Source: Acidobacteriota bacterium
Lineage (GTDB): Bacteria > Acidobacteriota > Terriglobia > Terriglobales > Acidobacteriaceae
Reading direction: 5' to 3'
NCBI GenBank assembly: GCA_021780315.1
Contig: JAJXYY010000024.1
Coordinates: 124,001-188,000 of the forward strand
DNA length: 64,000 bases
Part shown: piece after piece, positions 27,910-38,373 of the stretch
How positions within the stretch are numbered: the stretch's first letter is position 1
Layout of the letters: the number at the start of each line of letters is the position of its first letter
The notes under the pieces: model-generated
Told to the model about the DNA's origin: nothing
Databases searched by the model: none
The model's input: the letters and a program-made list of their open reading frames with translations, nothing else
Made by a program: the position numbers and the translations under genes

Positions 27910-30900
27910 ATGTTCACCACTCCACGTGTACGTCCGGGCCTTCGCCGTTTCGCCTCTTTTGCGATGTCGTCCGCTGTATTGCTTTTGCCGCTGATTTGCC
28001 CAGCCGCTGACGCTCAGACCGGGCGTGCCAATGTTGCCAGCCACGCCTTGAGTATCAGTTCCAGCACGGGCACGGTGGATCTGGGTCCACTGCCTGTGTC
28101 GCAACCACTGACCGTGACCCTGCGTCTGGCCCCTTCGGCTCAGCAGGCGGCAGCGCTCGATCAACTGCTTACGGAGCAGGCGACCCCGAACTCTCCCCAA
28201 TATCATCAGTGGCTGACCCCGCAGGAATACGCCACACAATTTGGCGCCAGCGACGAGCAGATCGCCACCATCAGCAGTTGGGCGCAGTCGCAGGGGTTGA
28301 CGATTGTGCAGATCTCTCCGGCGAAGAACCGCATGGTGGTGACTGGAACCACTGGACAGTTTCAGCGTGCATTTGCGGTAACGCTGCATAGCTACTCGAT
28401 TAGCGGCGGCACGCACTTTGCCAGCAGCACTCAGCCGTCGGTGCCGCTGGAATTGGCTCCGCTGGTGGCCAGCGTTACGGGTCTGGACAACCTTCCTGTA
28501 GCGGAACCGATGTCACTGGCTGCGACGAGTATCGCAGGCCAGACCCGGGCGCTTGCGGCAGCCAGCACCGATGCGCTGACTGCCATTGCGGATGCGGTTG
28601 ACGGCAATACCACTCCGCTGCTGAGCCTGACGACCTCTGCTTGCTCCACGGACTATGCGCCGTCTGACATTGCTGCCTACCGTGCGCTGTTCCGCCAGGC
28701 CAATTCCCAGGGGATGACGGTACTGGCGACCAGTGGTTGCGGCACTCGCGGTACGGGCAGCTTTCCGGGCAGCCTGCCGGAGGTGACCGCGCTGACGATC
28801 AGCCCGACGAGTGTACCGTTTATCGCAATTGCACCGCGTCCTGAGTGGCAGGCTGCGGTGGGTTTGCCAGCCGATGGCAATCGCTACGAGCCTGACCTGA
28901 CCACCAGTTCAGTGGCGGACTTTGCCCGGACGATGGCCTCGATTCTGCAACAGACCGGGACGCGCCAGGGCAACATCAATGCGACGCTGTATCGTCTGGC
29001 CACGACGCCCGATCTTTATACCCAGCCCGACGCTGCACCGGTGGGCACCTGGGAGGCGGCAACCGGACTGGGCACGGTAGACCTGGCGGTGCTTGCGAAA
29101 GTGTTCCCGCGTGCGACCTCCCCCATCTCCACTACCACCTCGCTCACGTCCAATACCTATGCGGTGACCTATGGCCAGCCGTTGACGCTGACCTCTAAAG
29201 TGCTGGCGAGTTCGTACGGCGCTACCAACCCTTCGGGAACAGTCACGTTCGTCTCTACGACGCAGGGCACCCTGGGCAGTTCGTCGATCGACAGTACCGG
29301 CCTGGCCGTACTGAATCTGGCGACTCCGCTAAATGTGGGGTCGTACAGCATTACTGCAAACTACTCCGGGGATGCGAGCTATTCCGCCAGCAGCAGTGCC
29401 CCACCGATTATCGTTACGGTGAGTATTGCCAATGCGACGATAACGGCAAGCATTTCGCCGACGAGCAACGTGCCATACGGTAGCACCGCGACCGTCACGG
29501 CCACGGTCACACTTCCATCGTCAGGTGGCAACCCCAGCGGAACAGTCTCTGCTGCGGTGCAGGGAATCACCGCTGCCGTGTACACCGCCACCCTCAGTCC
29601 AAATCCCGGCGGCAACAGTGCCACGGCCAATATCGTGGTTGCGGCGCCCCCGCCCGGGTCGTATCAGGTCCAGGTGAGTTGTGCTGGAAATACAAATTAT
29701 CTCTGCCAATCGCCAGTGCCGGTCACGCTTGCGACGGCGAAGGGCAACACCCTGACCACGGTGACGACGGTCCCGGTGGCACCACAAGCAGGGCAGCCAG
29801 TCACGATTACGGCGACAATCACCGACAACGGCAACGGTCCCGGGCCGTACAGCTTTACGGGAAACGTAACGTTCTACGACAATGGCAAGATCATCGCCAC
29901 GGCAGCCGTAGGCAGCAATCAAGCTTCGGCCAGTGCCACGCTCTCGGGAAATGTGTCCCACAATATCATTGCCTCGTACAGCGGCGATACCTTCTGGAAT
30001 CCAAGCACGTCGACCCCGCAAGTGGTCAATCCAACCCTGCTGCCTTCCACGCTGTCGCTGACATCGAACTACTCCACGGCCCTGGCGGGCGTCAACATCG
30101 TCTTTACGGCGACGGTATACACCACCGTTGCCAACACGGTGGGGCCGACGGGTACCGTCAGCTTCTACGACACGTTCGGCACCAGCATTGTGCAACTTGG
30201 TGGTCCAGGCAACCTGGTAACGCTCACTCCGAATGGGCCCAACCAGTCCATCGCCCGATTTACCACCACCGGACTGCTTGCCGGAACGCACAGTATCTAC
30301 GCGATCTATAACGGCGATGCCAACTTTGCCACCTCCACCTCGTCACCACTCTCGCTGAACCTGACGGACTATAACGTCTCCATGATTCCGCAGACCTTGA
30401 CGTTGAACGCGGGGCAGACGGGACAGGTGGTGATGTTGGTTGGTCTGGTTGGTGGGTTCACCGGCACAATCAGTTTTGGCTGCACGCCGCCGGCAAGCTC
30501 GGAGATGACCTGCGGCTTCAGCAATCCGACGCTTCAGGGCGGTGGTACAACCACCATGACCATCACGACCACTGCGCCGCACAATAAAACCAACCATCAG
30601 GCCAGTAACCGGCCGCTATGGGGTGGAGCGGCCGGTGCGACTCTGGCGACCTTGTTCTGTTTTGTGCTGCCACGCCGCCGCAGACTGGTTCCGGTACTGC
30701 TGATGTCGCTGTTTGCCGTGTGCTTGTTCCCTGGTCTGGGCTGCGGGCTGAACAATCTGGGCACGCTGCCGACCTCTGGCGGTTCGACCACTTCCACCAC
30801 ACCAACAGCCCCGACCGACCCCGGCAGCCCACTGGGGACGCAGGTCTTCACCATTACGACGGCCGGCAGCGACGGCGTAAGCACCGTTCGGCACACGTAT

Positions 30901-30924
30901 CAGTACCAGGTGACGATCCAGTAA
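27910..30924 (+). CDS. Secreted sedolisin-like protein with degraded catalytic domain and Ig-like repeats
   Basis: 1004 aa. Signal peptide (ends near AADAQ), then a full Pro-kumamolisin activation domain (about 45-200; NSPQYHQWLTPQEYATQFG). The next 200 residues match only pieces of the S53 domain. The helix with FRQANSQGMTVLATSGCG lacks the oxyanion Asp, TSSVADFARTM stands in place of GTSxAxPxFA, and the stretch bearing the Glu/Asp pair is missing. About four Ig-like repeats follow (YSGDASYSASSS, YSGDTFWNPSTS, YNGDANFATSTS). The C-terminus has helix, PRRRR, helix, GLGCG and a final beta stretch. It is unlikely to be a protease and may be a binding or decoy protein. First of three tandem paralogues. 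Confidence 0.87.
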   Translation: MFTTPRVRPGLRRFASFAMSSAVLLLPLICPAADAQTGRANVASHALSISSSTGTVDLGPLPVSQPLTVTLRLAPSAQQAAALDQLLTEQATPNSPQYHQWLTPQEYATQFGASDEQIATISSWAQSQGLTIVQISPAKNRMVVTGTTGQFQRAFAVTLHSYSISGGTHFASSTQPSVPLELAPLVASVTGLDNLPVAEPMSLAATSIAGQTRALAAASTDALTAIADAVDGNTTPLLSLTTSACSTDYAPSDIAAYRALFRQANSQGMTVLATSGCGTRGTGSFPGSLPEVTALTISPTSVPFIAIAPRPEWQAAVGLPADGNRYEPDLTTSSVADFARTMASILQQTGTRQGNINATLYRLATTPDLYTQPDAAPVGTWEAATGLGTVDLAVLAKVFPRATSPISTTTSLTSNTYAVTYGQPLTLTSKVLASSYGATNPSGTVTFVSTTQGTLGSSSIDSTGLAVLNLATPLNVGSYSITANYSGDASYSASSSAPPIIVTVSIANATITASISPTSNVPYGSTATVTATVTLPSSGGNPSGTVSAAVQGITAAVYTATLSPNPGGNSATANIVVAAPPPGSYQVQVSCAGNTNYLCQSPVPVTLATAKGNTLTTVTTVPVAPQAGQPVTITATITDNGNGPGPYSFTGNVTFYDNGKIIATAAVGSNQASASATLSGNVSHNIIASYSGDTFWNPSTSTPQVVNPTLLPSTLSLTSNYSTALAGVNIVFTATVYTTVANTVGPTGTVSFYDTFGTSIVQLGGPGNLVTLTPNGPNQSIARFTTTGLLAGTHSIYAIYNGDANFATSTSSPLSLNLTDYNVSMIPQTLTLNAGQTGQVVMLVGLVGGFTGTISFGCTPPASSEMTCGFSNPTLQGGGTTTMTITTTAPHNKTNHQASNRPLWGGAAGATLATLFCFVLPRRRRLVPVLLMSLFAVCLFPGLGCGLNNLGTLPTSGGSTTSTTPTAPTDPGSPLGTQVFTITTAGSDGVSTVRHTYQYQVTIQ

Positions 30925-30936
30925 GGCAGCCGGAGA

Positions 30937-30960
30937 GTGCAGCGTGTGGGAGCGCTGCAC
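30937..30960. repeat. Hairpin between the first two sedolisin genes
   Basis: GTGCAGCG and CGCTGCAC form a perfect 8-bp stem 13 bp after the stop. No T-tract follows, so it could slow decay or polymerase but is not a standard terminator. Confidence 0.45.
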
Positions 30961-31145
30961 AATCTCCAGCGCTCCTCTCCATTCCGTGAAATCCCGTTCG
31001 CAACATTTTGTGCCCGGTGAGGTCTAAACTGTATAAGTTCGTTGAGCCTGTCTCGCGACTTGGCAGGCAGATTTCACCGGGGGCGATATCTATTTTGAAC
31101 GTCGGACGTCTCACCACCACAACCTCTTCTTGTCAGGGACACTCC

Positions 31146-33911
31146 ATGCGCAGCCGTCTGCTTTCTCTCTTTGCCTTTTTGGTACTCGCCGCCATCCCCA
31201 GCCACGCTGTCGTCCAAAGCCGAATTGCTGCCATCAATACGTCCAGCCGGGTGGCGCTGCCACACAGTGTTCCGGCGCTGGCCAAGGCTTCCGCCGATCT
31301 GGGCGCAGCCTCAGCGAACCTGAAGCTGGATACTCTGACCATGTTCTTCAACATTACGTCGGCCCAGCAGGCGGCGCTCACCCAGTTGTTGATCGATCAG
31401 CAGAATCCCGGTTCGCCGCGTTACCACCAGTGGCTGACGCCGGAGCAGTTTGGCGCTCAGTTTGGCCTCAGCAGCCAAGATTTGGCTAAGGTCTCGCAGT
31501 GGCTCACCAGCCAGGGTTTTACAGTGACCGGTGTGGCCCGCAGTTCCAACTTCCTCACCTTTACCGGAAGCGTGGCGCAGGTGGAGCAGGCATTTGGCAC
31601 CAGCATCCACAGTGTTTCCTTCAATGGAGAGCAGCACTACTCCAACCTCACCGATCCAGTGCTTCCTGCGTCGATCGCGGCGGTGGTTGGCGATATCACA
31701 GGACTGAACAACTTCAAGCTCCGTGCTCGTGCCCGCACACGCGTGGTGCCGGCCAATCCCTCGCCGGACGCACTGCATCCTCAGTTCACCTCGGCCACCT
31801 CGGGGAATAATTTCGTGGCACCGGGAGACTTCTACAAGATCTACGACATCAATCCCAGCTCCCTGAACGGCACCGGTGTAACCATTGCGGTGATGGGCCA
31901 GACCGACATCAGCTTGACCGATGTCTCGGCCTTTCGCACCTCGTCGGGCTTTACCGGAACGGCGCTCGCGAACCTGCCAACGGTCAAGCTGTACGCGCCC
32001 GATCCGGGAACCGTCACAGCGGATGTGGCTGAGGCGCAGTTGGATGTGGAGTGGTCCGGCGCAGTGGCGCCAATGGCGAAGATTCTCTACGTGCTTTCGA
32101 ACAATGTGATCTCCGGCTCGTTAGCCAATGCTATTGCCAATAATCTTGCGCCGATCATCACCATCAGCTATGGCGATTGCGAGTCGAACTTCGGCCTCTC
32201 CACCATCACCAGTCTGAATGTGATATTGCAACAGGCCAATGCGCAGGGCCAAACGGTGGTTGGCCCGGCTGGTGACTCTGGCGCGACGGACTGCGACTAC
32301 AACACCTATCCTGCGGCCAATGGTCTGGCGGTCGACTATCCGGCCAGCTCTCCCTACGCAACGGCAGCAGGTGGCAGCATGTTCAACGAGGGCTCTGGCA
32401 CCTACTGGCTGACCGCCAACGGGACGGACGTGCTTACCTCCGCAACCGGCTACATTCCGGAGACAGTCTGGAACGAGTCCAGCGCGACCAACGGACTAGG
32501 AGCCGGTGGCGGCGGCGCCAGTGCCTTCTTTACCAAGCCCTACTGGCAGACCGGCACTGGCGTTCCCGCAGACTCAGCCCGCGACGTTCCGGATATCTCG
32601 CTGAACGCCGCCTCCGGCCACGATGGCTACCTGTACTGTGCGTCCGGCTTCTGCACCAACGGCTTTCGAAACTCGTCCGGCAACCTCGATGTCGTCGGTG
32701 GCACGTCAGTCGCAGCCCCAAGCTTCGCCGGTATGCTCGCCCTGGTGGAGCAAAAGCTTGCGACATCGCTCGGCAACGTAAACCCGATGCTGTATGCCTT
32801 GGCGAAAAGCTCGTACAGCGCGAACGTCTTCCACGACATCACCACGGGCAACAACTCCAGCGCCTGTGTTGCCGGTACTCAGGATTGCCCGTCGGGTGGA
32901 ACCATCGGGTACAACGCCGGGGTTGGATACGATCTGGCCACCGGTTGGGGCAGTATTGACGCCACCAACCTCGCTACCTACTGGTCGCAGGTAACGCCAA
33001 TCGTCAACACTACCGGAATTGGTGCCAAGATCTCGACGACCAGCGTCAGTACGTCTAGCCCGCTCTGCGGCGCAGCCAATGGAACCATCGCACTCAGCAT
33101 TGCCGTGGCGGACGCGAGCAGCACCACGTTGATGCCTACCGGCACGGTGCAAATTCTGGTGGATAACGTGCCAAACGGTGCCCCGATAGCCTTGGTCAAC
33201 GGAGTTGCCAGCTACAGCCTGAAGACGGCTGGCCTCTCCTCCGGCGGACATGTCATCGCGGCGATCTACTCCGGCGACGGCACCTACTCAGGTTCGAAGA
33301 ACACAGTCAATTCGGACGTGGTCTCCTCCACCGCGGCCGACTTTGCCTTTACTCCCTGCACCGCTACGACATCGGCTGCCTCCGGGTCCAACGCGGCGGG
33401 CATCACCCTGACGGTTGCGCCGGTGAACGGCTTTACGGGTGCGGTCACCTTTACGGCAACCTCGAACGACTCCACCTTGTCCTCGCAGTACACCTTTACG
33501 CCGACGACGGTGACGACCAGCGGAACCACCACCTTCGTGCTGTCCGCCTACAAGACGAGCGTGAAGGGTACGACGGGCAAATTGAAGGCTGATGCCGGTC
33601 TCGCATCATCCGCCCACACGCCGTTTGGCAAGGCTCCGTGGTATGTGGCGGGTTCCGGTGCGACACTGGCCTGCATGTTGCTGCTGACCGTGCCTCGTCG
33701 CCGCCGCTGGACCGGACTGCTGGTCATGGTTCTGTCCGCCGGTGCCTTGGGTGCGATAGGCTGCAGCGGCAACTCTGCCATTGCACCCTCGTCGGGTGGC
33801 GGCACGACTCCAGTGACCACCAACGCCACGCCGGGAACATACAACGTGCGTGTCACAGCTACCTCGGGAACACTGGTGCACAGCGTCAACGTCACATTTA
33901 CCGTACAGTAG
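31146..33911 (+). CDS. Sedolisin (S53) acid serine-carboxyl protease, secreted
   Basis: 921 aa. Signal peptide MRSRLLSLFAFLVLAAIPSHA, Pro-kumamolisin domain (about 45-190; SPRYHQWLTPEQFGAQFG), then an intact S53 domain. The catalytic set is Glu296 and Asp300 in EAQLDVEW, Asp377 in AGDSGATDCD and Ser521 in GGTSVAAPSFAG. The calcium-site region DLATGWGSIDATNL follows. One Ig-like repeat (YSGDGTYSGSKN) and the helix-PRRRR-helix-GCSG tail close the protein. S53 enzymes self-activate and work at acid pH outside the cell. I chose the ATG at 31146 after CAGGGA; an upstream ATG at 31008 gives no signal peptide. Confidence 0.93.
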   Translation: MRSRLLSLFAFLVLAAIPSHAVVQSRIAAINTSSRVALPHSVPALAKASADLGAASANLKLDTLTMFFNITSAQQAALTQLLIDQQNPGSPRYHQWLTPEQFGAQFGLSSQDLAKVSQWLTSQGFTVTGVARSSNFLTFTGSVAQVEQAFGTSIHSVSFNGEQHYSNLTDPVLPASIAAVVGDITGLNNFKLRARARTRVVPANPSPDALHPQFTSATSGNNFVAPGDFYKIYDINPSSLNGTGVTIAVMGQTDISLTDVSAFRTSSGFTGTALANLPTVKLYAPDPGTVTADVAEAQLDVEWSGAVAPMAKILYVLSNNVISGSLANAIANNLAPIITISYGDCESNFGLSTITSLNVILQQANAQGQTVVGPAGDSGATDCDYNTYPAANGLAVDYPASSPYATAAGGSMFNEGSGTYWLTANGTDVLTSATGYIPETVWNESSATNGLGAGGGGASAFFTKPYWQTGTGVPADSARDVPDISLNAASGHDGYLYCASGFCTNGFRNSSGNLDVVGGTSVAAPSFAGMLALVEQKLATSLGNVNPMLYALAKSSYSANVFHDITTGNNSSACVAGTQDCPSGGTIGYNAGVGYDLATGWGSIDATNLATYWSQVTPIVNTTGIGAKISTTSVSTSSPLCGAANGTIALSIAVADASSTTLMPTGTVQILVDNVPNGAPIALVNGVASYSLKTAGLSSGGHVIAAIYSGDGTYSGSKNTVNSDVVSSTAADFAFTPCTATTSAASGSNAAGITLTVAPVNGFTGAVTFTATSNDSTLSSQYTFTPTTVTTSGTTTFVLSAYKTSVKGTTGKLKADAGLASSAHTPFGKAPWYVAGSGATLACMLLLTVPRRRRWTGLLVMVLSAGALGAIGCSGNSAIAPSSGGGTTPVTTNATPGTYNVRVTATSGTLVHSVNVTFTVQ

Positions 33912-33921
33912 CATTCCGCTG

Positions 33922-33960
33922 GAAGAGAAGGCCGCGCCAACCTGGCGCGGCCTTCTCTTC
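33922..33960. terminator. Perfect 17-bp hairpin after the second sedolisin gene
   Basis: 33922-33938 and 33944-33960 are perfectly complementary over 17 bp with a 5-nt loop (AACCT). The right arm ends TTCTCTTC. It is 10 bp after the stop codon. The GC core with a pyrimidine-rich end suits a bidirectional terminator. Confidence 0.8.
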
Positions 33961-34101
33961 TGACTACCACTTTTGGGGCATCTACTCGGTCAACCTATTG
34001 TCTTGACTGGACTTGTTCCGCCAGCGAGAATCGTCACACTTGGTCTCTGCGCAACAAGGCTGGGCGAGTGATGCCGTCCGCGTACGGCGGGATATGTTCT
34101 G

Positions 34102-37100
34102 ATGTGCTGCCGTTCTTTTTTCTGCCGTGTTCTCACGGGCTTCTTGCTTCTTTTTTCGTTGTCGCTGGCGGCGGCCTCCGCACAGCAAGGACTGATCTCG
34201 CCTCGTTCACGCATCGTTTCCGCAATCGACGATGCGCACGTCACTCCACTTACGGGCAATACCCATCCGCTTGCGCGGCCTGAGTTCGATCAGGGCACGC
34301 TCGATGCGAACACACCGCTGCATCGGGTTGTGCTGGTGCTTCAGCGCAGCGCGGACCAGGAGACCGCACTGCGCCGCCTCCTCGACCAGCAGCAGGACCG
34401 CTCCTCCTCGACCTACCACCAGTGGCTTACGCCAGAGGCCTTTGGTGCCTCATTTGGCCCCTCCGATCGTGATCTGTCGCTGCTGACCGACTGGCTCTCT
34501 GCCCGCGGATTTACCGGAATCCAGATCAACTCCGGACGCACGCTGGTGGAGTTCTCCGGCACCGTCGGCACGGTCAACGCCGCGTTCCATACCAGCATCC
34601 ACCGCTATCTGGTCGACGGCCAAACGCACTACGCCAACGCTACCGATCCACAGATTCCAGCGGCACTGACCCCGGTGCTTGCCGGGCTAGTGTCGCTCAA
34701 TAATTTCCCGCGGCAACCAGCCAGTGTCAAGGCGGGCAACTTCCGTCGTAACACGGTCACCGGGGCCATCACTCAGCTTCCGGACAGTACTATCTCCTCC
34801 AGCACGGGGCCGACCGTTGCCACGGCGGTGCATCCCAGCTTCACGTACGGCCAGCAGACCACGAAGTTCTATGCCGTTACGCCTTACGACTTCGCTGCAA
34901 TCTACAACGTACTGCCGCTCTGGAACGCGACAGCCGCCATCGATGGCACGGGCCAGACGATTGCCATCGTCGGCCAGACCGATATCAATCCGGCGGACTT
35001 CGTCAACTTTCGCAAGCTCTTCAGTCTTCCTTTGGGCAACACGGCCACGCCAACCGGCACCCAGTATCTCAACATCATCTACAACGGCCCCAATCCGGGT
35101 GTACTGGCCGATGAGGGCGAGGCAAACATAGACACTCAGTGGTCCAGCGCAGTCGCTAAAGGCGCCACCATCGACTACGTCGTCTCCGCCAGTACCGAGG
35201 TAACGCAGGGTACCGACCTCTCCGCCGCTTACATCATCAACAACAATCTGGCTCCGGTGATGAGTTACAGCTATGGTCAGTGCGAACTCTTCCTGGGTGC
35301 TTCCGGTAATGTGTTTTATAACAATCTCTGGCAGCAGGCATCGGCCCAGGGCATCACAGTCTTGTTGGCCAGTGGCGACTCCGGTGCGTCAGGCTGCGAC
35401 TCCGGCAATGTGAAGGATGCAACGCACGGACTCGCCGTCAATGGTCTGGGCAGCACGCCCTACAACGTCTCGGTGGGTGGCACGGACTTCAATATGCCCT
35501 CCGGCGGCACAGCGTTTTGGAACGCGACCAACGACCCCGTCACCCAGGCCTCCGCAAAGGGCTACATCCCGGAGACCACCTGGAACGACAGTTGCACCAA
35601 CACCACGCTGCCGCTGCAGTCGCCTTTTCAGGGCCAGTCGGCAGAGCAGATATGTAACAGCACCGCACGTCCAAGCCTGTTGACCGTAAGCGGCGGAGGC
35701 GGCGGCCGCAGTAGCTGCATCAGTGCGACCGGCACCACCTCGGCCAGTTGCAGCAACGGCTATACGAAGCCCGCGTGGCAGACCGGACCGGGCGTACCCT
35801 CCGATGGCGTGCGCGACACCCCAGATGTCTCGTTCTTTGCGAGCAACGGCTTCTATGGCGCGTTCTATCTGGTTTGTCAGCAGAGTGCCAATCCCGATGG
35901 CCAGCCCTGCAGCCTGGCTGCGCCCGCATACGACTTTGTGGGCTATGGTGGTACGTCCGTCGCAACTCCGGCGTTTGCCGGCATCCTCTCACTCGTCAAT
36001 CAGAAGACCGGCAGCCGTCAGGGCAATGCCAACTATGTGCTCTACACGTTGGCCCAGCATCAGGCTGCGGTTGGCCTCGGCTGCAACGCAGCCACCGGTA
36101 CTCCTGCCTCCGGCTGCATCTTCAACGACCTCACCGATAACACTATCTCTATGCCGTGCCTCACTGGGTCGCCCGACTGCCAGACGACCAACTCCAGCGA
36201 TAGCTATGGTGTGCTGACGGGCTGGAAGAGCACGGCGGGCTACGATACCGCGACCGGGCTTGGCAGCGTCAACGCAGCCAATCTGGTCAATGATTGGACC
36301 ACAGCCGGCTTCGTCTCCAGTGCCACGTCGCTGGCGCTCTCCGCGAGCAGCGTCGTACATGGTAGGCCGGTCTCGGCCACCATCAACGTCAGCTCCACCA
36401 GCGGGACGCCCAGTGGCGAAGTCACGGTCAATGCTTCTGCGGTCAACGGCGCGGTAGCCTTCGGCACATTGGCCGCTGGCACCCTGACGACGTCGATCCA
36501 GTCGTTTCCAGGAGGCAGCTACACCGTCAGCGCGCACTACGCCGGCAACGGAACCTATGCCGCTAGCGACTCCAACAATGTGCTGCTCAGCGTGACGCCG
36601 GAGGCCAGCTCCACTTCCTTCCGTCCGCTGCTCTTCAACAGCAGGACGGGAGCGACCACGGTGGTCACGACTCGCACCTATGGCTCTCTCTTCCTGCTGC
36701 GGGCCGATGTTGCAGGTATCTCCGGCCAAGGCATCGCCACTGGAGACATCAAGCTGACCGATCAGGGAGTGCCGCTCGATGGCGGCTCATTCCGGCTCAC
36801 CTCCGGCGGCTATACCGAAGACCAGACCTCGCTCCTGCCGCCCGGAACGCACACGTTGGTCGCAGCCTACTCTGGTGATCCGAGCTTCAATCCCAGTCAG
36901 GCTTCCCCTGCTAGCCTGACGATCACACAGGACCAGACTGCGACGCAGATCTCCGCCCAGACAGCTACTGCCAGCCAGTCCGGTTCGTTCGCACTCACCG
37001 TGAAAGTGTTGCCACAGGGCGATGGCATGGGTCTGTATCCCACCGGCACCATTACGCTGAACATGGGGGGCAAAACACTCGCGACGGCAACCCTCACGCA

Positions 37101-38373
37101 AAGCAACAACGGCAGTATCGGTATCAATCTTCTGGCCAGCCAACTCACGGCCGGCAGCAACGCAATAACCGCTTCCTACTCGGGCGACACCAACTACAGC
37201 ACATCCTCCAGCACCGGGCTCTACCTCACGGTGAATCCGGACGTGCTGGCCAGCAGCTCCTCTGGCCTGTCGCTCTCGGCCAGCAGCGTCGCTCCCGGTG
37301 GCAGCCTCACCGCGACTGCGGTGGTGACACCGAGTAGCCCATCGCCGCAGGGCACGGTCTACTTTGCCATCGACGGTCGGCAGACCTCAACCGGCCTGCT
37401 CACTGCTGCACAGGCCACCGCGCTGATCGCTACCACCGGTCTCGCACCCGGCCAGCACTCGGTTACTGCTACCTTCTCCGGCGATACCAACTATAAAGCG
37501 TCTGTATCTACTCCGGTTACATTTACCATCGTCGGCCCAACCGTGGCTTCTACAACCCTGCTGACACTCTCGCCGTCATCGGCGGTGCAGGGAACCACAA
37601 TTACACTCACAACGTCTGTTATCCCCACGACACCGTCTGCTACCGGCACAGCGCAGTTGCTGCTGGATGGCAACGCGTACGGCCAGCCCACCATACTGGC
37701 TGCCGCCACAGCGACCTTCCAACTGCCAACCACCACACTGCAGCCAGGGCCGCACACGTTGCAGGTGCTTTACTCCGGCGATGTGTTGTACCTGCCCAGC
37801 AGTTCGTCGGTCTCCACGCTGAATCTCGCGGTCCCCACTGGTAGCTTTACGGTCACCAGCACGGCTGCTGCCGTTAGCGTATCTCGTGGAGGCACATCGC
37901 AACCTATCACCCTCGCGGCCAATTCCGTGGATGGCTTCAGCTCCACCATCACATTTTCCTGTTCCGCCGGACTGCCCAGTGGAGCGGCCTGTACCTTCAC
38001 CCCGGCTACCGTGACGCCGACGCCCAAAGCTGCCGCACCCACCACGACCGTAACCATTACCACCACGGCTCCCCCAGTGCAGACGGCACGCTCGCAACGG
38101 AGTGGTCACTTCCAAGCCACCGGCGAGGCGGCGACCCTGGCCGGGCTGCTCTGCTTCTTGTTCCCCCGGCGTCGTCGATACGGTGCCTGGGTCGCAGTTA
38201 TTGCCGCTTTTGTTCTACTCACCAGTGTCAGCGGTTGCGGCACCGGAACCTACAACCCCGGCACACTGAGCGCAATTGGTGGAACCCCCGCAGGGATCTA
38301 CGTCGTGACTGTGTCCGCAACCAGCATCTCCATCAACCAGACCACCAACATTACGCTTACCGTGCAGCAGTAG
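34102..38373 (+). CDS. Large sedolisin (S53) protease with Ig-like repeats, secreted
   Basis: 1423 aa, the largest protein here. Signal peptide to about residue 28 (LLLFSLSLAAASAQ), Pro-kumamolisin domain (about 55-205; STYHQWLTPEAFGASFG), then an S53 domain with Glu340/Asp344 (EANIDTQW), Asp426 (SGDSGASGCD) and Ser619 (GGTSVATPAFAG). A Cys-rich insertion sits between residues 490 and 560. At least five Ig-like repeats follow (YAGNGTYAASDS, YSGDPSFNPSQA, YSGDTNYSTSSS, FSGDTNYKASVS, YSGDVLYLPSSS). It ends in the same helix-PRRRR-helix-SGCG tail as its two neighbours. The last 17 bp overlap the end of ppk1 on the other strand. The start codon is not strongly supported. Confidence 0.92.
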   Translation: MCCRSFFCRVLTGFLLLFSLSLAAASAQQGLISPRSRIVSAIDDAHVTPLTGNTHPLARPEFDQGTLDANTPLHRVVLVLQRSADQETALRRLLDQQQDRSSSTYHQWLTPEAFGASFGPSDRDLSLLTDWLSARGFTGIQINSGRTLVEFSGTVGTVNAAFHTSIHRYLVDGQTHYANATDPQIPAALTPVLAGLVSLNNFPRQPASVKAGNFRRNTVTGAITQLPDSTISSSTGPTVATAVHPSFTYGQQTTKFYAVTPYDFAAIYNVLPLWNATAAIDGTGQTIAIVGQTDINPADFVNFRKLFSLPLGNTATPTGTQYLNIIYNGPNPGVLADEGEANIDTQWSSAVAKGATIDYVVSASTEVTQGTDLSAAYIINNNLAPVMSYSYGQCELFLGASGNVFYNNLWQQASAQGITVLLASGDSGASGCDSGNVKDATHGLAVNGLGSTPYNVSVGGTDFNMPSGGTAFWNATNDPVTQASAKGYIPETTWNDSCTNTTLPLQSPFQGQSAEQICNSTARPSLLTVSGGGGGRSSCISATGTTSASCSNGYTKPAWQTGPGVPSDGVRDTPDVSFFASNGFYGAFYLVCQQSANPDGQPCSLAAPAYDFVGYGGTSVATPAFAGILSLVNQKTGSRQGNANYVLYTLAQHQAAVGLGCNAATGTPASGCIFNDLTDNTISMPCLTGSPDCQTTNSSDSYGVLTGWKSTAGYDTATGLGSVNAANLVNDWTTAGFVSSATSLALSASSVVHGRPVSATINVSSTSGTPSGEVTVNASAVNGAVAFGTLAAGTLTTSIQSFPGGSYTVSAHYAGNGTYAASDSNNVLLSVTPEASSTSFRPLLFNSRTGATTVVTTRTYGSLFLLRADVAGISGQGIATGDIKLTDQGVPLDGGSFRLTSGGYTEDQTSLLPPGTHTLVAAYSGDPSFNPSQASPASLTITQDQTATQISAQTATASQSGSFALTVKVLPQGDGMGLYPTGTITLNMGGKTLATATLTQSNNGSIGINLLASQLTAGSNAITASYSGDTNYSTSSSTGLYLTVNPDVLASSSSGLSLSASSVAPGGSLTATAVVTPSSPSPQGTVYFAIDGRQTSTGLLTAAQATALIATTGLAPGQHSVTATFSGDTNYKASVSTPVTFTIVGPTVASTTLLTLSPSSAVQGTTITLTTSVIPTTPSATGTAQLLLDGNAYGQPTILAAATATFQLPTTTLQPGPHTLQVLYSGDVLYLPSSSSVSTLNLAVPTGSFTVTSTAAAVSVSRGGTSQPITLAANSVDGFSSTITFSCSAGLPSGAACTFTPATVTPTPKAAAPTTTVTITTTAPPVQTARSQRSGHFQATGEAATLAGLLCFLFPRRRRYGAWVAVIAAFVLLTSVSGCGTGTYNPGTLSAIGGTPAGIYVVTVSATSISINQTTNITLTVQQ

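Follow-up and report, generated by a model that had tools for sequence, protein, structure and literature searches.

A C-terminal tail of acidobacterial exported proteins that may act as an internal lipoprotein signal within a split immunoglobulin-like domain

Introduction

The bacterial lipoprotein signal, acted on by Lgt, LspA and Lnt, comprises a basic stretch, a hydrophobic helix, Gly, Ala or Ser before an invariant Cys, and a Gly/Ser tether, with the lipobox given as [LV][ASTVI][GAS]C in the account followed here (PMC8689077). A basic stretch, a hydrophobic helix, a Cys with its small preceding residue and a Gly/Ser tether are likewise present in the tails of three tandem proteins (designated here as proteins 1, 2 and 3) encoded by an Acidobacteriota bacterium of the family Acidobacteriaceae, within a stretch of 64,000 nt (contig JAJXYY010000024.1, positions 124,001 to 188,000; referred to as the window). 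Unlike the lipoprotein signal, the putative signal of the tail is located near the C-terminus, where it follows an entire secreted protein and a further helix and lies inside a predicted folded domain.

Tags of the C-terminus offer a second comparison. MYXO-CTERM is described as a C-terminal tag of surface proteins, in which a helix and an Arg cluster are combined with an invariant Cys that is believed to carry a lipid (PMC11980579). As that source presents the MYXO-CTERM/myxosortase system, it resembles the tail in its many copies per genome, its restriction to a clade and its combination of Cys, helix and Arg cluster; however, the order is Cys, helix and cytoplasmic Arg end in MYXO-CTERM, and helix, Arg run, helix, Cys and β-strands in the tail. 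The PEP-CTERM/exosortase and GlyGly-CTERM/rhombosortase signals are likewise outlined as a helix and then an Arg run, both close to the C-terminus (PMC3237569). In the tail, by contrast, a second helix and a β-hairpin follow the Arg run, which is thus not at the extreme C-terminus as in the PEP-CTERM criterion, and the corresponding enzymes do not track the tail.

The tail has already been modelled in NCBIfam release 20 (June 2026) as NF058595 (invert_tail, 'lipo-invert putative C-terminal anchoring domain'; curated cut-off of 37 bits), and a literature search for NF058595 and the lipo-invert tail returned no paper on it. Judged from its match to protein 3, the 113 positions of this model represent the same tail, running from the final strand ahead of helix 1 through the helix pair and the Cys to the β end; they start within the immunoglobulin-like (Ig-like) domain, omitting its first part (residue 1314 of protein 3, compared with a domain start at residue 1248). 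What is new here is the prediction that the β tail is the end of an Ig-like domain begun before the helices. The reading favoured in this study, held with moderate confidence, is that the tail Cys is lipidated by Lgt and the chain then severed by LspA immediately ahead of this Cys. The Ig-like domain would thereby be nicked, and its lipidated last β-hairpin would stay clamped in place.

Results

Architecture and distribution of the tail

The C-termini of all three proteins were found to share the order hydrophobic helix (helix 1), PRRRR, second hydrophobic stretch (helix 2), GC[GS] and β stretch, which confirms an earlier note on this DNA in its claim that the three end alike. The residues at the Cys are GCG, GCS and GCG in proteins 1, 2 and 3, respectively, and the β stretch stops at the final codon or one codon earlier. 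The corresponding lipobox-like tetrads are GLGC, AIGC and VSGC, of which only VSGC conforms fully to the lipobox, as had been noted previously. The Cys is positioned 44 to 59 residues from the C-terminus, rather than in the N-terminal placement of a lipoprotein signal.

Proteins 2 and 3 scored 45.3 and 62.9 bits against NF058595, respectively, both above the cut-off; protein 1 fell below it (26.0 bits when the protein was scored, 28.3 when the genome was searched) with the order of its parts unchanged. A search for the tail elsewhere in the window's genome, which the earlier note had proposed, identified 15 proteins with a C-terminal tail in total, 13 above the cut-off and two below it, protein 1 being one of the latter. 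Their cargo is varied, encompassing three sedolisin-like proteins, a subtilase fragment and GH81, FG-GAP, kelch, NHL and Ig-like repeat proteins (Pfam scan, 14 of the 15). Two tails on short contigs of this genome (L172 and L173, on C44 and C18) are near-identical, reflecting either a recent duplication or an assembly split. Among 14 control genomes, none contained a match above the cut-off; sub-threshold matches were present in all 14 at a loose E ≤ 1, and Thermus composti had a match at E ≤ 1e-5 that was below the cut-off. The 15 C-terminal copies and the absence of above-cut-off matches in the controls argue that the tail is not a chance resemblance.

Of 395 genomes sampled across the phylum (at most 11 candidates scored per genome), 79 had a match at E ≤ 1e-5 and 58 had one above the cut-off. 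The tail was detected in 49 of 50 genomes of the window's family, compared with 30 of 345 others, which mostly had single matches. A further sample of 100 family genomes (up to 40 candidates scored per genome) yielded 698 matches, with 97 genomes having a match at E ≤ 1e-5, 95 having one above the cut-off and a maximum of 29 per genome. Named relatives of the protein 2 tail include Edaphobacter and Tunturiibacter, and the best segment of a database record from Acidobacteriaceae bacterium is 92% identical to protein 2.

A cysteine is the constant position of the tail

Conservation was assessed in 114 tails, comprising the 15 of the window's genome and 99 relatives drawn from the best NF058595 matches listed in the phylum sample; 112 of these were aligned, leaving out one tail identical over the last 120 residues and one short fragment. 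The Cys was present in 114/114 tails, always after the last hydrophobic stretch, and constituted the sole invariant column of the alignment. The residue before it was invariably small (G in 84, A in 22 and S in 8 tails). Position -2 was frequently S (31) or T (23), and position -3 was L (45), A (17), V (12), M (10), I (8) or T (8). The residue following the Cys was G (70), S (30), A (9) or N (3), never Asp (0/114), and a Gly/Ser stretch comes next. A disulfide role for the Cys was considered and rejected, as four of the 114 tails lack a second Cys to pair with within their final 190 residues.

Conversely, the PRRRR that the earlier note placed in the shared tail is exact in the three window copies, yet it is not the constant part of the tail, being exact in 8/114 tails (RRR in 53/114). 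The loop stretch contains 2 to 7 Lys/Arg residues and is free of Asp and Glu in 96/114 tails. Similarly, by eye no motif common to all 114 tails was seen before helix 1, which occurs in several types. Among relatives of the protein 2 tail (120 listed of 145 found, the window's own protein being the first), PRRRR was nearly invariant, Gly-Cys and P850, R852 and R853 of PRRRR were invariant in 120/120, and a PWY-AGSGA stretch just before helix 1 was strongly conserved. In this subfamily, helix 1 (PWY-AGSGATLAC-LLL--PRRRRW; window 33561-33692) is conserved beyond what a plain membrane helix would appear to require, a pattern that suggests a specific partner.

The two helices are of different kinds

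When the 112-tail profile was compared with the PDB, its first part matched an Ig-type domain of BglH (E 4.7e-5) and the S-layer protein SbsC. The middle part aligned with the beginnings of MtrC, OmcA, TraN, LpqE and others (E 0.013 or weaker), and the last part with strands in BT_4661, cadherins and others (E 0.12 or weaker). Separate profiles of the two helices were built from half of the tails (57/114). The profile of helix 2, the Cys and the linker matched 42 PDB sequences at E ≤ 10, with weak E-values (best 0.0067), and 37 of the 42 matches fall within the N-terminal 17 residues of exported proteins, of which many are lipoproteins. LpqE, NosL and others are lipoproteins by their printed names, and MtrC, OmcA, TraN, YfiB, BamE and PelC are lipoproteins too. 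The tail Cys was aligned to the lipobox Cys in all five printed alignments.

The helix 1 profile produced 19 PDB matches, none of which aligned it with an N-terminal lipoprotein signal. The best was a transmembrane segment of Notch, which ends in a basic stop-transfer stretch (E 0.0076); seven rows represent LppS/LdtB, matched via the strand before the helix. Helix 1 thus resembles a stop-transfer segment, and helix 2 with its Cys and Gly/Ser linker fits an internal lipoprotein signal. The suggestion that the Arg run, helix 2 and Cys form such a signal inside the protein thereby gained support from the constancy of the Cys and of a preceding G, A or S, from the tether and from the lipoprotein N-termini matched in the PDB.

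A further lipoprotein signal at the N-terminus of the tail proteins was considered and rejected: a crude scan of 108 complete frames of tail proteins assigned an N-terminal signal to 100 and none, by rule, to eight; an N-terminal lipobox-like match was noted in three, which by eye have ordinary signals. For N-terminal lipoproteins of the window's genome, a similarly crude scan gave 28 candidates among 404 gene-like frames, about eight of them convincing by eye; these all read L/M-x-[GAS]-C, one at a later Cys, in a comparison too crude to count. An ordinary-looking N-terminal lipoprotein (L211:11950-12858, minus strand), encoded about 2 kb upstream of a tail gene, has a signal and linker (LGGCGSTGSNSST) strongly similar to helix 2 and the linker of that tail (TVGCGSTSSNTV), which hints at the origin of the insert.

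The helices are predicted to interrupt an Ig-like domain

In the AlphaFold model of the protein 3 tail, a single sandwich is formed from both flanks of the insert (block means of 92-98 for the first part and 96-97 for the last strands). An Ig-like domain is predicted that opens with ~73 residues ahead of the helices and is completed by the last ~28 residues of the protein, which would supply its final two strands; a membrane hairpin of ~74 residues is likely to be inserted into this domain. Further prediction-level support is provided by a contiguous domain match in the PDB and by uninterrupted copies detected by profile. The Ig-like domain of the Micromonospora viridifaciens sialidase (PDB 2ber, 1eut) is contiguous (404-502), whereas that of the tail is split by ~74 residues.

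Lipoprotein enzymes are near-universal and sortase-type enzymes do not track the tail

The window's genome was found to encode one LspA, two Lgt-family proteins, one LolA and two exosortase-family proteins. LspA was present in 100/100 family genomes, with one match in 95 and two in five, of which two have partial pieces on separate contigs; a dedicated LspA copy was rejected in view of the 95 single-match genomes and, by eye, the lack of a relation to tail number. Lgt was detected in 99/100. The second Lgt-family gene of the window's genome (C34:237808-238527, minus strand) is diverged, scoring 59.4 bits compared with 121.9 for the first. A dedicated second Lgt was likewise rejected, with tails in 39/39 genomes that have one Lgt match and a weak, non-significant Spearman correlation between Lgt and tail number over the 100 genomes (0.18, p 0.07).

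Exosortase was observed in 59/100 family genomes. It was rejected as the processing enzyme by co-occurrence, since 38 of the 41 genomes without it carry tails, with a median of 7 copies compared with 6 in genomes that have it; the three tail-less genomes are all without exosortase (Fisher p 0.066). Rhombosortase (TIGR03902) exceeded its cut-off in 1/100 genomes, compared with tails in 97/100, and was rejected as well; the TIGR03902 matches at E ≤ 0.001 in 99/100 genomes are presumably other rhomboids. The co-occurring membrane peptidase envisaged by the earlier note was therefore not found among exosortase and rhombosortase, CPBP-type (myxosortase-like) and other protease families not having been searched. 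No recurrent neighbouring gene that could serve as an enzyme was seen in the ten frames scanned from seven of eight tail-gene neighbourhoods, a set that does not take in every neighbour and, given crude gene calling, may contain false frames. One genome (G237) contains an exosortase/archaeosortase-family gene (L204:7672-8706, plus strand; TIGR04178, 42.1 bits, cut-off 23) about 500 bases downstream of a tail gene (L204:5211-7163), and no exosortase-like gene was present in the remaining nine frames, which came from six further neighbourhoods. As LspA and Lgt are near-universal in the family and neither tested sortase-type enzyme tracks the tail, the lipoprotein enzymes could suffice, with exosortase and rhombosortase apparently not required.

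A proposed route of processing and its alternatives

Under the favoured reading, export would start at the predicted N-terminal signal and be halted by helix 1 and the Arg-rich loop, after which helix 2 would re-enter the membrane, serving as a lipoprotein signal within the chain and placing its Cys at the outer face. Since both halves of the sandwich need the same side of the membrane to fold, the helix pair is proposed to run out-in-out, which would leave the Arg loop inside. Lgt would then add diacylglycerol to the Cys, and LspA would cut before it, which is the weakest step. The last β-hairpin with its lipidated N-terminal Cys would stay in the sandwich and pin the large outer part to the membrane. 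The pair of helices would be left attached to the upstream chain and anchor it in the inner membrane, unless it is released by another cut in the variable linker before helix 1; for the same reason, travel to the outer membrane would need such a cut. A cut between the helices, as first envisaged, appears less likely than one just before the Cys, because the Cys after helix 2 is the only invariant position. That the lipid would consequently be carried by a fragment not covalently joined to the cargo, the whole protein being held purely by strand complementation, is put forward tentatively.

Several observations weigh against this reading. The strict lipobox, with I also allowed at position -3 ([LVI][ASTVI][GAS]C), fits 51/114 tails and one of the three window copies (protein 3). 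The invariance of the Cys is inflated, as the model used for collection contains it and the relatives are its best-scoring matches; the loss of one residue should not drop strong matches, and none of the 114 tails is without the Cys. Helix 1 is short, with a 12-residue core in protein 3 and 10 residues helical in the model. A family genome of 99% completeness (G423) has four tails and no Lgt match, an assembly gap being the only explanation offered. The split fold was predicted well once and not twice, since the tail was poorly modelled when protein 2 was folded in full (block means of 25-38 for the hairpin region and 63-71 for the last strands), and Foldseek returned no PDB match at E ≤ 0.001. 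Moreover, a permuted tail profile also matched upstream repeats (26 matches, 18 of them spanning, the best at 73.7 compared with 86.4 bits), which would be expected of tandem repeats, yet leaves the control not clean. Finally, the literature consulted contained no example in which LspA acts on an internal signal preceded by a further helix.

The Cys could instead be lipidated by Lgt and left uncut by LspA, so that two helices and a lipid hold the protein in the inner membrane. This is unlikely, but draws on the hydrophobic helix and basic loop that precede the Cys as in Lgt substrates, on a helix hairpin that may not fit LspA, and on the 63/114 tails that do not have a strict lipobox. The G, A or S before every Cys, however, suits a cleavage site better than lipidation alone, and the Gly/Ser tether is typical of lipoproteins that are cut.

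Two cuts, by LspA before the Cys and by another membrane protease before helix 1, would remove the hairpin and release a two-chain domain as an outer-membrane lipoprotein. Under the Lol rule, the absence of Asp after the Cys directs a lipoprotein to the outer membrane, and no tail has Asp at this position; LolA is present, and in the protein 2 relatives a strongly conserved PWY-AGSGA stretch directly precedes helix 1. We nevertheless judge this route improbable, given that by eye no such motif is common to the 114 tails and that neither protease family tested tracks them.

A plain two-helix anchor, with neither lipid nor cut and with Gly-Cys as a structural or helix-cap preference, would by itself anchor the domain, and the constancy of the Cys owes something to how the tails were collected. 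It is given slightly less weight still, as the Cys and the preceding G, A or S persist across tails ~30% identical to the first and as helix 2, unlike helix 1, matches lipoprotein signals. A sortase-type signal, in which exosortase, rhombosortase or a similar enzyme targets helix 1 and the Arg run, is very improbable despite the two exosortase-family genes of the window's genome, the downstream gene in G237 and the exosortase-less state of the three tail-less genomes, because tails are about as numerous where exosortase is absent, rhombosortase is nearly so throughout, and by eye no shared motif precedes helix 1.

The three tandem proteins

A Pfam scan identified a pro-kumamolisin domain and Ig-like repeats (Big_3_5) in all three proteins (Table 1). 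With E...D and GTS, which we take to be the catalytic motifs of sedolisins (S53), as a guide, EAQLD and GGTSVAAP were recognized in protein 2, which also matched kumamolisin (E 1.1e-36), and EANID and GGTSVATP in protein 3. Neither motif was found in protein 1, which retains the sedolisin prodomain and is likely to be a non-catalytic relative adjoining two motif-bearing proteins; its middle part can be aligned with protein 3 in pieces only. The earlier assignment of all three to the sedolisin family is to be qualified on this point for protein 1. The start of protein 2 is most likely 31146, rather than the first possible start at 31008, since the length of three database proteins (P0001-P0003, 921 residues) agrees with it.

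Table 1. Features of the three tandem proteins (positions in the 64,000-nt window; residues numbered per protein)
Feature	Position	Strand	Basis
Protein 1, frame	27910-30924	+	open reading frame
Protein 1, final Ig-like domain, first part (residues 820-889)	30367..30576	+	alignment with other tails
Protein 1, helix 1 hydrophobic core GATLATLFCFVL	30634..30669	+	sequence
Protein 1, PRRRR loop	30670..30684	+	sequence
Protein 1, helix 2 and lipobox-like GLG-C (Cys945 at 30742-30744)	30685..30744	+	sequence; NF058595, 26.0 bits
Protein 1, Ig-like domain, predicted last two strands	30829..30921	+	tail alignment
Protein 2, frame	31146-33911	+	open reading frame, start chosen at 31146
Protein 2, final Ig-like domain, first part (residues 732-805 of 921)	33339..33560	+	tail alignment
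Protein 2, helix 1 core GATLACMLLLTV	33657..33692	+	G838 and A842 invariant in 120/120 listed proteins, including the window's own
Protein 2, PRRRR loop	33693..33707	+	P850, R852 and R853 invariant in 120/120 listed proteins
Protein 2, helix 2 and AIG-C (Cys873 at 33762-33764)	33708..33764	+	G872 and C873 invariant in 120/120 listed; NF058595, 45.3 bits
Protein 2, Ig-like domain, predicted last two strands	33828..33908	+	relatives; fold model of moderate confidence
Protein 3, frame	34102-38373	+	open reading frame
Protein 3, final Ig-like domain, first part (residues 1248-1323)	37843..38070	+	AlphaFold block means 92-98, model residues 11-90
Protein 3, helix 1 core AATLAGLLCFLF	38128..38163	+	model helix 110-119
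Protein 3, PRRRR loop	38164..38178	+	sequence
Protein 3, helix 2 and lipobox VSG-C (Cys1379 at 38236-38238)	38179..38238	+	model helix 128-141; NF058595, 62.9 bits
Protein 3, Ig-like domain, predicted last two strands (residues 1395-1422)	38284..38367	+	model strands 165-175 and 178-189; block means 96-97

Discussion

The lipoprotein pathway is taught as acting on N-terminal signals. If the favoured reading is true, it would also act on an internal signal near the C-terminus, and many exported proteins of Acidobacteriota would count as lipoproteins, among them acid peptidases, a glycoside hydrolase and kelch, NHL and FG-GAP repeat proteins. Predictors designed around N-terminal signals are expected to miss them. 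Such proteins would, furthermore, be naturally composed of two chains, with β-strand pairing holding the anchor in place.

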